This document shows, piece after piece, positions 6,630-10,814 of a stretch of 19,843 nucleotides of DNA. Below the pieces are notes generated by a model. The model saw only the letters and a list, made by a program, of their open reading frames with translations, ran no database searches and had not been told where the DNA came from. This DNA comes from Candidatus Pygmaiobacter gallistercoris. GTDB taxonomy: Bacteria; Bacillota; Clostridia; Oscillospirales; Ruminococcaceae. A program made the translations under genes and the position numbers. The stretch is from NCBI GenBank assembly GCA_019113125.1, contig DXIA01000138.1:1-19843 (forward strand), in the 5' to 3' direction. The number at the start of each line of letters is the position of its first letter. The first letter of the stretch is position 1.

Positions 6630-6682
6630 AAAGCGGCATGCAATCCCCCCTGCGGGGAAAACTGCATGCCGCTTTTTGTTTT
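6630..6682. terminator. Bidirectional terminator between converging genes
   Basis: A 13-base perfect stem (AAAGCGGCATGCA with TGCATGCCGCTTT) encloses a smaller CCCC/GGGG hairpin. It is followed by TTGTTTT on the plus strand and preceded by an A-rich run that serves the minus strand. It serves the GRAM-like gene (plus) and the DUF4130-type gene (minus, ending at 6690). Confidence 0.9.
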
Positions 6683-6689
6683 GAACCGT

Positions 6690-7484
6690 TTAATCTACTG
6701 TCCTACCTGCCGCCGGCAACCCAAAATCCTTCCGTTCCTCCTCCGGCTGCAGCTCAGGCAGCAGATTCCAGTAGCGCTTGGGCATATTGGTCCGCCGGCA
6801 GCGGGGATTCTCCCGCGCGGCGATCGCAATGGTGTTATAAAACCGCCGCCAGAGCCGCCGGGTCTCCTCTTCTTCCTCGCTGACCGGTGGCAGGGTGAGA
6901 CGGTCGACCGTCTCATACCGCAGCAGGTGCTCCTGCCAGATCATCACCTCGTGGTGGGTGCGGTCGTGAATCAGAAAGTTCTCGTTGCGGTACCGCCCGC
7001 AGAAATGTCCGGCAAAGAGGGGCAGCACCCGGTTCTTCGGCTCGATCTCGGCAACCAGCGCCCCGCCCACATCCGAAAACCGCAATAACCCCTTGTATTT
7101 GTGCGCCTCAGCGAGAGCGCGCTCGACCGCCGCCGATGCAGCGGCCACCACCGGATCCCCCCGCATTGCGGTCACCCCCCGTCCGACCCGGAACGCAAGC
7201 CGGGTAAAATCAAGGGCGAGCAGCTCCTTTTCGGGGTGTTCGGTCAGGTAGAGCCCCCGCACCAGCCGCGCCGCATCGGGGCTGATCTTTCGGGCGAGCC
7301 CGTTGAAGACCCGGTTTGCCCGGATCGGCTGGGATTCCACCCACCGCTCCTCGAACAGACTGGTCTGCTGCGGCTCACCAATCAAAATCGCGCCCGGCCG
7401 CTCCTTGCGGGCAAACGCCTCGAAGATGCAGCAGAGCATCCCCTCAAAACCGCCGTCATACAGATAGTTGATGTTCTCCCGCAT
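6690..7484 (-). CDS. TIGR03915/DUF4130-type protein, partner of the radical SAM DNA-repair-like protein
   Basis: A 264-residue protein matching the family annotated as probable DNA metabolism protein, whose members are almost always paired with a TIGR03916 radical SAM gene. The N-terminus NYLYDGGFEGMLCCIFEA is the family's typical opening. The C-terminal DUF4130 region ends with the hallmark segments YNTIAIAARENP and MPKRYWNLLPE (about 215-250). DUF4130 also occurs fused to uracil-DNA glycosylase-like domains, hence the link to DNA repair; no reaction is established to my knowledge. I chose ATG at 7484 because translation there opens like the family, with GAGG five bases upstream and 32 bases after the radical SAM stop. 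An alternative ATG at 7526 overlaps that gene and adds 14 residues unlike the family. The final gene of its transcript. Confidence 0.88.
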   Translation of the reverse strand: MRENINYLYDGGFEGMLCCIFEAFARKERPGAILIGEPQQTSLFEERWVESQPIRANRVFNGLARKISPDAARLVRGLYLTEHPEKELLALDFTRLAFRVGRGVTAMRGDPVVAAASAAVERALAEAHKYKGLLRFSDVGGALVAEIEPKNRVLPLFAGHFCGRYRNENFLIHDRTHHEVMIWQEHLLRYETVDRLTLPPVSEEEEETRRLWRRFYNTIAIAARENPRCRRTNMPKRYWNLLPELQPEEERKDFGLPAAGRTVD

Positions 7485-7516
7485 CCAGACCTCGCCCCCG
7501 CCGCAAAAATCCCCTC

Positions 7517-8809
7517 TCAAAGACATTCGACCGCCGCCTCCCGCAGCTGCTCCCGCCGCACCGGCTCCCCAAAAAGGGAGAGCTGCTCGGTCTGAGCCAG
7601 CGGACTGCCGTCGATCAGCGCCCGCGCCGCCGACTTCCAGCCGCCGACAAGGCCCTCCCGCCGCCGGCCGCGGCAGAGCAGAAAATACTGTGCCCGCTTG
7701 AGCACCACCCCGATCCGCTTGAGATCCTCCCAGTCAAGGCTCCCCTGCCGCCGGGCGCGGACGATCCGGGCGGCACTGCGCGGTCCGATGCCCGGCACCC
7801 GCAGCAACAGCTCATACGCCGCCTTATTAACCTCGACCGGGAAGAGCTCGGGGTGGTTGAGCGCCCAGTTGCATTTTGGGTCGAGAAACGGGTTGAAGGC
7901 GGGGTGCTCCTCGTCCAGCAGCTCCTCCGCCGAAAAGTGGTAAAACCGCAGCAGCCAGTCCGCCTGATAGAGCCGGTGCTCCCGCAGCAGCGGGGGTTTT
8001 GTGTCCAGTGCCGGCAGCAGACTGTCCTGTGCCACCGGGATGTAGGCCGAGAAAAAGACCCGTTTGAGCCCGAACTTGCGGTAGAGCCCCTGGGTCAGCC
8101 GCAGAATCTGCAGGTCGGTCTCGGGGGTGGCCCCGACAATCATCTGGGTACTCTGTCCTGCCGGCGCGAAACGAGGCGCCTTTTTGTATTTTATGACGCT
8201 TTCTCTACTCTCTGTAATTCCATCCCGGATACCGGCCATCGGCCCGAGGATGTTCTGCTTGGTCTTACCGGGGGCAAGCAGCGCAAGACTCTTCTGGCTG
8301 GGCAGCTCGATGTTGACGCTCAGCCGGTCGGCCAGCAGCCCGAGCCGGGCGATCAAATCCGGATCGGTGCCGGGGATCGCTTTGGCATGGATGTAGCCGG
8401 TAAACTGACAGGGGCCCCGCAGCAGCTCGAGTGCCCGGATCATCTGCTCGGTCGCGTGGTCGGGGCTGCGGTCCACCCCGCTGGAGAGAAAGAGCCCCTC
8501 GATGTAGTTGCGCCGGTAAAACCGCATCGTCAGCTCGGCCAGCTCGGCCGGTTCGAAGGCGGCGCGAGGGGTGTCGCTGCTGCGCCGGTTGACGCAGTAG
8601 CGGCAGTCGTAGACGCAGCGGTTGGTCATCAGCACCTTGAGCAGCGAGATACACCGCCCATCCGCCGACCAGCTGTGGCAGATGCCGCAGTCGGCGGTGC
8701 TTCCCATCCCCGCCCCGCTCGGCGCACGGTCCCCCGCGCCGGAGGAGGTACAGGCCACATCATATTTTGCCGCATCGGTCAGAATGGTCAGCTTGTCCAG
8801 CAGATCCAT
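7517..8809 (-). CDS. Radical SAM protein, TIGR03916-type, putative DNA modification or repair
   Basis: Predicted radical S-adenosylmethionine enzyme of 430 residues. The cluster-binding motif is CVYDCRYC (Cys65, Cys69, Cys72), the standard CX3CX2C. Four more cysteines precede it (Cys20, Cys41, Cys44, Cys53, with CGICHSWSADGRC), suggesting a second metal site. Residues about 332-358 (LLRVPGIGPRSAARIVRARR) form a helix-hairpin-helix DNA-binding motif, supporting action on DNA. The family is named putative DNA modification/repair radical SAM protein; substrate unknown. Start is ATG at 8809 with GGGGGA seven bases upstream. A hairpin terminator lies only 20 bases before the start and no promoter fits in between, so expression would require readthrough from the small membrane-protein gene. 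Its partner gene follows 32 bases downstream. Confidence 0.92.
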   Translation of the reverse strand: MDLLDKLTILTDAAKYDVACTSSGAGDRAPSGAGMGSTADCGICHSWSADGRCISLLKVLMTNRCVYDCRYCVNRRSSDTPRAAFEPAELAELTMRFYRRNYIEGLFLSSGVDRSPDHATEQMIRALELLRGPCQFTGYIHAKAIPGTDPDLIARLGLLADRLSVNIELPSQKSLALLAPGKTKQNILGPMAGIRDGITESRESVIKYKKAPRFAPAGQSTQMIVGATPETDLQILRLTQGLYRKFGLKRVFFSAYIPVAQDSLLPALDTKPPLLREHRLYQADWLLRFYHFSAEELLDEEHPAFNPFLDPKCNWALNHPELFPVEVNKAAYELLLRVPGIGPRSAARIVRARRQGSLDWEDLKRIGVVLKRAQYFLLCRGRRREGLVGGWKSAARALIDGSPLAQTEQLSLFGEPVRREQLREAAVECL

Positions 8810-8829
8810 CGATATCCCCCCATCCTGTC

Positions 8830-8854
8830 AAAAAAAGGCGGGCCTCTGCCCGCC
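8830..8854 (-). terminator. Intrinsic terminator between the small membrane protein and the radical SAM gene
   Basis: On the minus strand, GGCGGGC-AGAG-GCCCGCC is followed directly by seven T residues, a textbook terminator. It lies 14 bases after the stop of the 83-residue gene and 20 bases before the radical SAM ATG. The run continues as TTGACA, which resembles a -35, but no -10 follows at a suitable distance. Confidence 0.85.
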
Positions 8855-8868
8855 TTCTGTCGCCGTAA

Positions 8869-9120
8869 TCAGGCAGCCCGCCGCCGGGTTGGGGCATCGC
8901 CCTGCCGACCATCCGCCGAGTGCACCGTCCGCTGTCTGCGCCGGTCGGCGGGTTCCGCAAGTCCCCGCACAAAGAGCTGCCAGCTGCAGAGAAAGAGCAC
9001 CGCCGCCACAAGCAGACGATAGAGCGAGCTGCTGTCCGACAGGCTCACCTCGCCCAGCACCATGATCCCCAAAAGACCGGCCAGAATTGCGAGCATATTC
9101 AGCAGAAAACTTCCTTTCAT
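8869..9120 (-). CDS. Small two-helix membrane protein, predicted target of the adjacent S24 repressor
   Basis: An 83-residue protein not recognised from any named family. It has a hydrophobic segment at about 5-24 (LLNMLAILAGLLGIMVLGEV), a short polar loop with a run of serines (SLSDSSS), and a second segment at about 33-51. A strongly basic, Arg-rich tail follows (about 58-83). Start is ATG at 9120 with GAGGGGGAAG upstream. Its promoter carries the operator palindrome shared with the divergent repressor gene, so it should be induced when the repressor is inactivated. Small membrane proteins under SOS-type control are known as division inhibitors (YneA, SidA) or membrane toxins (TisB); that analogy is inference from position, not from sequence similarity. 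Confidence 0.7.
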   Translation of the reverse strand: MKGSFLLNMLAILAGLLGIMVLGEVSLSDSSSLYRLLVAAVLFLCSWQLFVRGLAEPADRRRQRTVHSADGRQGDAPTRRRAA

Positions 9121-9178
9121 CTTGACTTCCCCCTCTTATATCCTGAGCGGATCTCCCGCATCTTTTCCTGTTGCCCTC

Positions 9179-9207
9179 ATCATAATACAACTATTAGTTG
9201 TTGTCAA
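9179..9207 (-). promoter_or_regulatory. Promoter of the small membrane-protein gene with embedded operator
   Basis: Minus strand: a perfect TTGACA (9202-9207), a 17-base spacer and TATGAT (9179-9184). The palindrome ACAACTAATAGTTGT starts immediately after the -35 and fills the spacer. Bound repressor would directly block RNA polymerase. The leader to the ATG at 9120 is about 50 bases. Confidence 0.85.
9187..9201. promoter_or_regulatory. Operator O1 for the XRE-S24 repressor
   Basis: A perfect palindrome around a single central base: ACAACTA-T-TAGTTGT. It shares both ACAAC/GTTGT arms and the TA before the right arm with O2 at 9258-9272, giving the consensus ACAACYNNTAGTTGT. It differs from the Bacillus LexA box (CGAACnnnnGTTCG). 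Confidence 0.75.
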
Positions 9208-9248
9208 GTGTTATAACAACCATTTTTCAAGAAATAGTCAAATTTCTC

Positions 9249-9277
9249 TTTACAATTACAACCTGTAGTTGTATACT
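9249..9277 (+). promoter_or_regulatory. Autoregulated promoter of the XRE-S24 repressor gene
   Basis: TTTACA (9249-9254), a spacer of exactly 17 bases and TATACT (9272-9277). The operator O2 (9258-9272) occupies the spacer and touches the -10. Initiation near 9284 would leave about 20 bases before the ATG at 9304, enough for the AAGGAGG site. Confidence 0.82.
9258..9272. promoter_or_regulatory. Operator O2 for the XRE-S24 repressor
   Basis: ACAAC-CTGTA-GTTGT, an inverted repeat whose arms extend one more base each side (T...A, 9257-9273). Its centre lies 71 bases from that of O1, about seven helical turns, so both sites could be on the same face of the DNA and bind repressor cooperatively; that last point is inference. 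Confidence 0.72.
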
Positions 9278-9303
9278 AATTGTAGAAAAAGGAGGTGCCG
9301 GCC

Positions 9304-9918
9304 ATGTTTGCTGAAAATCTGAGAAAGCTGCGCCGGGAGCGCAAGCTCAGCCAGGGTGCCCTGGCCGCCGCGTTGCAGATCACCCAGCAGGCGGTGGGCA
9401 AGTGGGAGACCGGCCGCAGTCAGCCGGATGCCGTGATGCTGCGCCGGATCGCCGATCTGTTCGGGGTCAGCACTGATCTTCTGCTGGCCGGCGGACAGCC
9501 GGCGGCCAGGGTGCTCTCCTACACCGCGCCGGTCGAGCACCCGATCCCGGTGGTCGGCACGGTGCGGGCCGGTTTCGGCGCGCTGGCGCTGGAGGAGGAC
9601 TGCGGGGTGGAGTACGCGCGGGTCAAGGATCCCGAGAACTACTTCTACCTGATCGTGCGGGGGGACAGCATGGAGCCCCGGATTCAGGACGGGGACCTCG
9701 CGCTGGTGCACCGCCAGTCGACGTTGGAGGACGGGGATCTCGGGGTCATCGTCTTCGGCGAGGAGGGCGAAGGCACCCTCAAGAAGTTCATCCGCCGGGG
9801 CAACGCAGTGGTGCTGCAGCCCTTTAACCCCGACTACCAGCCACAAGTACTGGTCGGGGAGGATCTTGACCGGCTCTACATCGCCGGCAAGGTGGTCGAG
9901 ACCAAGGCGAAGTGGTAA
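9304..9918 (+). CDS. XRE-family repressor with S24 (LexA-like) self-cleavage domain
   Basis: A 204-residue two-domain repressor. Residues about 4-62 form an XRE/Cro-type helix-turn-helix (LRRERKLSQGALAAALQITQQAV, then WETGRSQPD). Residues about 80-200 form an S24 peptidase domain: probable scissile bond Ala89-Gly90 in VRAGFG, nucleophile Ser122 in GDSMEP and general base Lys160 in GTLKK. All three elements needed for RecA-stimulated self-cleavage, as in LexA and CI, are present, so the protein should be inactivated by DNA damage. It is not LexA itself, whose DNA-binding domain is a different winged helix. Start is ATG at 9304 behind AAGGAGG; a GTG at 9295 lies within that binding site. It diverges from the small membrane-protein gene, and each promoter holds one operator copy. 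No phage genes are nearby. Confidence 0.93.
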   Translation: MFAENLRKLRRERKLSQGALAAALQITQQAVGKWETGRSQPDAVMLRRIADLFGVSTDLLLAGGQPAARVLSYTAPVEHPIPVVGTVRAGFGALALEEDCGVEYARVKDPENYFYLIVRGDSMEPRIQDGDLALVHRQSTLEDGDLGVIVFGEEGEGTLKKFIRRGNAVVLQPFNPDYQPQVLVGEDLDRLYIAGKVVETKAKW

Positions 9919-9968: not shown

Positions 9969-10814
9969 TCAGTCAAATTCCAGAACGCTGCCCGCCCCGA
10001 CCGGATGGTAGGCGGGGCAATGGGCCGCAAAGAGGGCGAGGGCCGGCCCGCCGGTGCAGTGGCAGACGGCGGCGGTGGCGAGCTGCGGCCGCTCATTGAA
10101 GAAAGCGATGGTCGCCATCGCCCGCTCGGGGCCGCTCGCCTTGAGATGGGTTCCCCCGATCACCGCGATGACCGGGCGGCCCAGCCGCTCCTCGGCGGCG
10201 AGGATCATGTTGCAGACTCCGCTGTGGGCACAGCCGGTGAGCAGTACGATGCCCTCCCGCGCGGGCAGCGCCAGCGCGAGCTCGTGGTTGAACTCATCCC
10301 GCACCAGCACACCGCCCCGTTTCTGGCGAAACTCGTCGAGCATCGGCTCAAAATCACAGCGGCGCTCAAACCGGGAGAGCAGCGCTGTCTCCGGCTCGTC
10401 GGCGAAGGGGTGAAACACCGGGGTCTCAACATACCGGTGGGGGATCCGGCGGCGGATCAGTTCCCCGTCGGTCAGCCCGGTGCCGGTCGAGGTCAGGCTG
10501 CCGTCCGCCCGGCGGTGAAAGACCGGCCAGAGTGTGTCGGAGGAGAGATAAAACCGGTAGCCGCGGTCCAGACGCCGGTCAAAGAAGAGCGGCAGCGAGA
10601 GCCCGTGGTCGTAGTGGTTGTGGGAGAGGATCACCGTATCCACCCCGGCAATATCCACCCCGAGCGCGGCGGCGTTGTCGAGAAAATGATCCTGCCAGCC
10701 GGAATCCATCAGGATCTTGTGGTGATCGGTCTCGATAAAGACTGACAGCCCGTCCTCCGGCACAAGGTCCGGGCGGGCGGCGGTATTTTCGGAGAGGATG
10801 GTAATGCGGAGCAT
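9969..10814 (-). CDS. Metallo-beta-lactamase-fold hydrolase, COG1237 type
   Basis: Predicted cytoplasmic metal-dependent hydrolase of 281 residues. The metal motif is SHNHYDHG (His65, His67, Asp69, His70); later ligands probably include the His in TGCAHSGV and the one in GGTHL. The TGC(A/S)H and GG(T/F)HL signatures place it with the COG1237 group, some members of which are annotated as dihydropterin-6-methyl ribofuranosylaminobenzene phosphate synthase; the real substrate here is unknown. I chose ATG at 10814 (MLRITILSEN) with GGGGGA upstream. The frame stays open for another 85 codons, but that stretch crosses the promoter and the divergent gene. It is transcribed alone from the promoter at 10847-10875. 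Confidence 0.9.
   Translation of the reverse strand: MLRITILSENTAARPDLVPEDGLSVFIETDHHKILMDSGWQDHFLDNAAALGVDIAGVDTVILSHNHYDHGLSLPLFFDRRLDRGYRFYLSSDTLWPVFHRRADGSLTSTGTGLTDGELIRRRIPHRYVETPVFHPFADEPETALLSRFERRCDFEPMLDEFRQKRGGVLVRDEFNHELALALPAREGIVLLTGCAHSGVCNMILAAEERLGRPVIAVIGGTHLKASGPERAMATIAFFNERPQLATAAVCHCTGGPALALFAAHCPAYHPVGAGSVLEFD

Follow-up and report, generated by a model that had tools for sequence, protein, structure and literature searches.

Phage-type S24 repressors have been described in the place of LexA in Streptococcaceae and Bacteroidetes (PMC8565304), and another such repressor, FddR, runs the damage response in Francisella (PMC13148647). SOS control has also been deduced in Bacteroidetes for a uracil-DNA glycosylase (UDG) operon, COG1573-COG4277, with Verrucomicrobia and Alphaproteobacteria cited as further cases (PMC8565304). 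Blocking of late division by small membrane proteins is called widespread in the SOS response, and YneA of Bacillus subtilis, SosA of S. aureus and SidA of Caulobacter are damage-induced inhibitors of this kind (PMC13396833). Here we describe a locus of Candidatus Pygmaiobacter gallistercoris made up of an S24 repressor, a small membrane protein and a radical SAM/DUF4130 pair (TIGR03916/TIGR03915). It lies in a stretch of 19,843 nucleotides, positions 1 to 19,843 of contig DXIA01000138.1, which as a whole is called the window (assembly GCA_019113125.1, 1.6 Mb and 91.6% complete; G000 among the genomes compared, which carry G numbers, their loci carrying L numbers). Quite likely, a phage-type S24 repressor has replaced LexA in the Pygmaiobacter/Gemmiger/Faecalibacterium lineage and runs a DNA-damage response of which this locus is the core; the repressor probably controls the membrane protein, the repair pair and, in many species, recA. 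S24 stand-ins for LexA and an SOS-controlled UDG operon are already known; for this lineage we found no report, and searches of open-access literature listed no LexA or SOS work on this repressor in Faecalibacterium or Ruminococcaceae.

Several features are shared with the described systems. HdiR of Lactococcus and Streptococcus is likewise an S24 stand-in that regulates itself where LexA is absent, and in one species its control extends to the cinA-recA operon (PMC8565304); here many relatives have a recA operator. Compared by description, it differs in belonging to another lineage and in controlling umuC-type genes, whereas the genes here are those for the membrane protein, the TIGR03916/TIGR03915 pair and recA. 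The non-canonical LexA proteins of Bacteroidetes are also phage-like S24 repressors with an SOS network that takes in the UDG operon COG1573-COG4277, but their operators (GGA-N5-TCC and CTAA-N5-TTAG) differ from the ACAAC-N5-GTTGT found here, their networks are large in contrast to the very small set of exact sites here, and that account reports no matches to them outside Bacteroidetes (PMC8565304). FddR has yet another operator (GTG-N11-CAC) and belongs to another phylum; unlike in the FddR case as described, relatives that hold LexA were found here, and recA and a repair pair are added (PMC13148647).

The four-gene module put forward in an earlier note on this DNA is real, its open reading frames, families and coordinates being borne out by profile matches. 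The repressor (9304..9918, + strand, 204 aa) joins a CI-like helix-turn-helix (HTH_3, 55.7 bits) to a Peptidase_S24 domain (86.8 bits), and the LexA-type self-cleavage elements claimed for it, the Ala89-Gly90 cleavage site and the Ser122/Lys160 dyad, lie at those positions and are invariant in 13 repressor orthologues. Phage repressor family phrog_4 matches it over its full length (160 bits), and its nearest relative is an uncultured Pygmaiobacter protein (95% identity). It stays below the cut-off of the canonical LexA profile TIGR00498 (70.9 against 110.95 bits, over residues 70-198 only), and at E 0.001 it has no match to the LexA winged-helix domain PF01726, HTH_3 standing in its place. It thus shares the Ala-Gly site and the Ser/Lys dyad with canonical LexA and has the combination that marks phage-type S24 stand-ins, a CI-like helix-turn-helix plus S24 with cleavage residues. 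A reading as anti-phage defence was rejected: PADLOC matched only the helix-turn-helix region of the repressor and none of the other three proteins.

The membrane gene (8869..9120, - strand) is divergent from the repressor gene, and the radical SAM (7517..8809) and DUF4130 (6690..7526) genes follow downstream of it on the same - strand with an overlap of 10 nt. The two divergent promoters, as placed by a consensus scan, each have a 15-bp operator-like palindrome (ACAACNNNNNGTTGT) in the spacer between -35 and -10. Operator 1, ACAACTATTAGTTGT (9187..9201), falls within the spacer of the membrane-gene promoter (9179..9207, - strand; -35 TTGACA 9207-9202, -10 TATGAT 9184-9179), in keeping with the earlier proposal that the membrane gene is under the repressor's operator. 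Operator 2, ACAACCTGTAGTTGT (9258..9272), is a putative operator on the repressor's own promoter (9249..9277, + strand; -35 TTTACA 9249-9254, -10 TATACT 9272-9277). These are the only exact sites in the genome; because a reversed control pattern also gives 2 matches, it is the placement of the operators and not their count that goes beyond chance.

Both the operator and the gene arrangement recur in relatives. Among 61 genomes sampled first (the window's own included), 28 have TIGR03916 over the cut-off, and a repressor orthologue adjoins the pair in 13 of these, with 58-95% identity to the window repressor (the window's own apart). Within the genus, all 7 genomes have the repressor and the pair in divergent orientation; in 6 other genera the repressor lies upstream on the same strand. 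A scan of named genomes with the repressor alignment then gave 129 relatives, in part from the same assemblies as the G genomes, and the best 80 of the 129 were kept; these span Pygmaiobacter, Gemmiger, Faecalibacterium, Fournierella, Subdoligranulum and Ruthenibacterium as well as Oscillospiraceae, Ruminococcaceae and Clostridia that lack a genus name. A radical SAM gene stands at most 1.5 kb from the repressor at 59 of the 69 loci assessable for it (53 on the same strand, 6 divergent; 11 loci were not judged), with a gap of just 36-43 bp in five. The 300 bp upstream of the repressor hold an exact operator at 67 of 79 named loci and one with a single mismatch at 10 (none at 2; 0.01 expected). 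Together with the membrane protein, found at 73 of 81 loci, these neighbourhoods leave the idea of a recurrent module unrefuted.

Genome-wide searches were confined to exact sites, since chance matches would swamp searches that allow mismatches. In 13 repressor genomes they gave 35 sites: 19 at the repressor locus, 5 at recA, 1 at uvrB and 10 elsewhere, 5 of the latter inside long plausible coding frames. The same search in 12 LexA genomes with the pair gave 11 sites, none of them in the recA and uvrB upstream regions scanned. A wide regulon of exact operators was rejected on the small size of this set. One of the 19 locus sites (G031:C4:65425) lies about 1.7 kb from its repressor; at that locus (L047, 10722-11300) an insertion, transposon-like by eye, appears to part the repressor from its operator.

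Support for a link to DNA damage comes from recA and from LexA itself. An exact operator precedes recA in 5 of the 11 repressor genomes with a readable region (G003, G004, G014, G026 and G031), 131-197 bp before the recA match and, by eye, adjoining the presumed -35. Further repressor genomes without canonical LexA show it in 11 of 21, with one mismatch in 2 more, so that 16 of 32 LexA-less repressor genomes have the exact site overall; Faecalibacterium prausnitzii APC923/61-1 (G199, L218) is among the carriers. None of 11 LexA genomes and none of 3 genomes that hold both regulators has a recA operator, and 500 rounds of shuffling of the second recA set of 24 produced no operator. Canonical LexA (TIGR00498) is over the cut-off in 0 of the first 13 repressor genomes and in 0 of the 7 genomes of the genus, the window's own included. 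A survey of 197 family genomes, of which 29 hold a strong repressor (at least 300 bits), found full-length LexA over the cut-off in 0/29 as against 109/168 of the others, one S24-only TIGR00498 hit (G171) being discounted (Fisher 3e-12, kinship ignored). Similarly, at a line of 33 bits that was drawn after the scores were seen, the LexA winged helix is present in 0/35 repressor genomes, in 3/3 that hold both regulators and in 12/12 controls.

In relatives without the repressor, LexA seems to hold the place that the repressor has here. Of 15 such relatives, 9 have a LexA box (GAACNNNNGTTC, one mismatch allowed) in the 150 bp upstream of the TIGR03916 gene (0.6 expected). It is found in 9/12 with LexA and 0/3 without, and in none of 13 genomes with the repressor. 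A class-wide count, taken irrespective of LexA status, gave 19/30 (0.8 expected) for the 30 best-scoring loci from 48 genomes over the TIGR03916 cut-off. Cleavage residues, recA operators, the absence of LexA and LexA boxes in relatives thus agree in favouring a DNA-damage regulator, and the damage link that the earlier note had proposed gains from all four; the module is conserved and, as far as sequence can tell, probably DNA-damage-controlled. That note had treated the repressor as a local regulator; it looks like more than this, namely the lineage's substitute for LexA.

A number of observations weigh against this reading. Genomes of close kin are not independent counts. The radical SAM gene lies 5-9 kb from the repressor at 2 of the 69 assessable loci and is absent beside it at 8 (at least 2.5 kb on both sides). 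Fourteen of the 32 LexA-less repressor genomes have no recA operator even when one mismatch is allowed; the window's own genome is one of them, and recA in G002, G005 and G006, of the window's own branch, also has none. The uvrB gene bears an operator in just 1 of 13 repressor genomes (G004). Loss of LexA is not confined to repressor genomes, being seen in the 59 of 168 other family genomes that also have no LexA over the cut-off. At the winged-helix cut-off of 23.7 bits, 7 of 35 repressor genomes match weakly (23.7-26.5 bits); they include the window's own, where PF01726 matches at 26.5 bits a frame of 378 aa that has no TIGR00498 match. In G018 the weak match coincides with a 98-bit full-length TIGR00498 match, so that a diverged LexA may survive there; none of the other six falls at a listed TIGR00498 match. 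Six loci of Faecalibacterium prausnitzii type have no membrane protein, and the membrane proteins of G094 and G186 have no [AVSI]A end, the ending that is otherwise conserved. In the window's genome, a strong hairpin parts the membrane gene from the pair.

The hairpin lends weight to the view that the repressor and membrane protein are a domesticated phage unit complete in itself, with the pair as an unregulated neighbour here because transcription is stopped before it. The earlier note was right to place a hairpin before the radical SAM gene, although its stem lies at 8835-8856 and not at 8830-8854; with its T run on the - strand the element covers 8829..8856, folds at -29.4 kcal/mol (z -4.3, none of 200 shuffles as stable) and ends about 20 nt before the radical SAM start codon. 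The two-gene unit without a nearby radical SAM gene in G094, G103 and G186, and the 8 of 69 loci mentioned above, fit this view as well. A simple consensus scan, however, found no promoter-like site between the hairpin and the start codon or in the membrane gene, so that transcription of the pair appears to depend on some readthrough; no such hairpin is seen between the two genes in Pygmaiobacter massiliensis (G003), and the narrow repressor-radical SAM gaps at five other loci point the same way. Moreover, the pair lies on the membrane-gene side in Pygmaiobacter and on the repressor side in other genera and yet keeps adjoining an operator-bearing promoter. An unregulated pair is on balance unlikely. 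It is highly improbable that the repressor senses some signal other than damage (a peptide or redox, for example), with S24 cleavage residues simply inherited from a phage ancestor: HdiR is reported to respond to heat shock too (PMC8565304), the window's recA is not under the operator, and cleavage is here a prediction from residues, but the cleavage site and dyad are invariant in 13 orthologues, half of the LexA-less repressor genomes have the recA operator, and where relatives have LexA boxes on this repair gene the repressor stands in for them.

A third alternative concerns the membrane protein, which could be a phage leftover, holin-like or for immunity, with no role in division and with its conserved ending due to some other constraint. 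The 83-aa protein, with two hydrophobic segments and a basic tail that ends in RRRAA (a possible C-terminal degron), matches nothing in Pfam or NCBIfam, and its family has no Pfam entry. A simple rule asking for a divergent protein of 78-104 aa whose N-terminal part has two hydrophobic segments, or a single long one, found it at 64 of 81 loci (the window included), and nine of the 17 misses show it by eye (L187, L204, L205, L208, L216, L219, L222, L227 and L176, which is G004), which makes it the repressor's commonest partner. The remaining loci are L186, which bears an insertion, L246, which is too short, and the six of Faecalibacterium prausnitzii type (L217, L218, L221, L230, L235 and L251), where two tRNA-Ser genes occupy the membrane-protein position. 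The 64 proteins found by rule end in AA (46), VA (8), SA (4), IA (2) or AAS (4), and all nine found by eye end in [AVSI]A, an ending that is present in 69/73 membrane proteins as against 25/1476 long background frames from these loci. When 16 members were searched against a database, 78 relatives came up, from lineages that overlap the locus set; 58 of them have the [AVSI]A ending and 14 have AS instead. The few that are named are hypothetical and none has a Pfam domain. The repressor is of phage type, one of the 16 members has a weak match to a holin family (E 0.0015), and scans of the 16 found no division-inhibitor domain, all of which leaves the leftover a possibility to be reckoned with, if a rather doubtful one. 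Against it, the protein is kept facing the repressor at the great majority of loci across genera at identities to the window protein as low as 14% (in a sample of 16), the ending is mostly kept, and Pfam detected no phage structural gene among ten window proteins.

Judged by its regulation, size, hydrophobicity and ending, the membrane protein most likely holds back division, or some other process of the envelope, for a limited time. It can be likened, by description, to YneA, SosA and SidA in being small and in being expected to be under a damage repressor and short-lived (PMC13396833). YneA has one transmembrane (TM) segment plus LysM, whereas here there are two hydrophobic segments, no LysM was found among the 16 members scanned, and the division role is our proposal. 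The AA terminus is presumably comparable to ssrA-type degrons, and the conserved [AVSI]A ending suggests a short-lived protein. In B. subtilis, lexA faces yneA; a membrane gene facing the canonical lexA of relatives was looked for with a simple open-reading-frame rule at 30 LexA loci and not seen (3 unconvincing frames).

The other two proteins match their families well: the radical SAM protein scores 628.5 bits against TIGR03916 (rSAM_link_UDG; cut-off 343.5) and carries a helix-hairpin-helix (HhH) motif, and its partner scores 222.1 bits against TIGR03915 (cut-off 112.25) and also matches DUF4130. The CX3CX2C cysteines C65/C69/C72 are invariant in 25 radical SAM proteins (27 rows less L038 and L057; L052 never entered), as are C20, C44, H45, C53 and C313 outside that motif, perhaps a second metal site. 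The DUF4130 alignment was likewise reduced from 28 to 25 rows (L044, L052 and L056 removed). A search of solved structures by sequence matched the radical SAM protein over the HhH segment only, and Pfam and NCBIfam scans found no UDG domain in the window proteins. We take COG4277 to be the counterpart of TIGR03916, and the UDG operon of Bacteroidetes to be related to the present pair. What sets this pair apart within its family is the lack of a UDG match and, as to regulation, an adjoining S24 repressor that replaces the LexA boxes of relatives. To go by its family name, the pair would act in DNA repair, and a published prediction makes DUF4130 a mutagenesis-related enzyme that accompanies SplB-like radical SAM proteins and UDGs (PMC3765255). 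The pair is little studied, literature on DUF4130 with radical SAM proteins being sparse in a search of open-access papers. The earlier note had offered a physiological trigger for an uncharacterised family; the damage link is supported, but the trigger is less new than proposed there, SOS control of the presumably related UDG operon being in print for other phyla (PMC8565304).

Some further observations concern the pair and its surroundings. The radical SAM frame of G013 (L038) is a TIGR03916 match with one in-frame TAG, where a pseudogene or an assembly error is possible. A second TIGR03916-like subfamily occurs in some relatives (L058-L060, about 312-333 bits, with a match that starts at position 55), and no DUF4130 relative was found within the stretches fetched for it. 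G001, G005 and G006 (L031, L035 and L036) have an extra open reading frame of about 50 aa (MANWELEYLAKRLGG-like) between the membrane and radical SAM genes that is not in the window. A terminator-like hairpin (6630..6675, - strand) lies 3' of the pair, and a metallo-beta-lactamase-fold gene (9969-10814, - strand) is convergent with the repressor gene, the same neighbour being present in G001, G002 and G005.

Returning to the damage response as a whole, RecA filaments on damaged DNA would trigger cleavage of the repressor at Ala89-Gly90, to judge from its residues and kin, and cleavage would derepress the repressor gene and the membrane gene at both divergent promoters, as operator placement suggests. 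Induction would reach the repair pair here by transcription past the hairpin, and in other genera by way of the repressor operon. The membrane protein would transiently brake division or another envelope process, and its [AVSI]A terminus would mark it for rapid proteolysis after repair. Because recA has no site in the window's genome, the predicted regulon there seems to be the local locus alone, and because of this and the strong hairpin before the pair, induction in this genome is something we can only infer.

The origin of this arrangement may be traced in genomes that hold LexA plus the repressor (G094, G103 and G192; 286-290 bits). G094 and G103 have the repressor, the divergent membrane protein (which in G103 ends in AA) and the exact operator, and the 9.5-10 kb examined there contain no radical SAM gene; the contig of G192 begins at the repressor gene. 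The unit is also present, with no radical SAM gene in 9 kb, in G186, a genome in which no LexA was found. A repressor tree was built from 26 of the 80 named loci, the window, 3 G loci and 13 further loci, with LexA status known for the G-genome rows only. These four genomes fall outside a group of 33 rows (100/100), to which the window and all other rows except six outgroup rows belong; deeper forks are moderately supported. In the simplest story, a phage repressor and its divergent membrane gene would have entered beside LexA; LexA would then have been lost, the repair pair would have come beside the new repressor, and recA would have gained an operator, which in the window's branch was either lost or never gained. 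The family genomes with neither the repressor nor LexA over the cut-off (59/168) form a further set. We put forward tentatively, at somewhat less than an even chance, that the family preserves the stages of the replacement, from LexA alone, through LexA plus the imported unit (G094, G103), to LexA lost, with the pair that LexA once controlled now adjoining the new repressor and with a recA operator, and to a shrunken local regulon in the window's branch, the oldest target being a new damage-induced, degron-tagged family of two-TM proteins that pause division.

These findings name a likely DNA-damage regulator for Faecalibacterium, Gemmiger and their relatives, together with a testable operator. 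They also connect the TIGR03916/TIGR03915 genes with DNA damage in Clostridia through two separate regulators, and this is stronger evidence of function than a single neighbourhood would be. The LexA-bearing relatives may show the takeover itself, and genomes with LexA beside the imported unit would allow the replacement of a global regulator to be studied stage by stage, as the authors of the FddR work proposed (PMC13148647).

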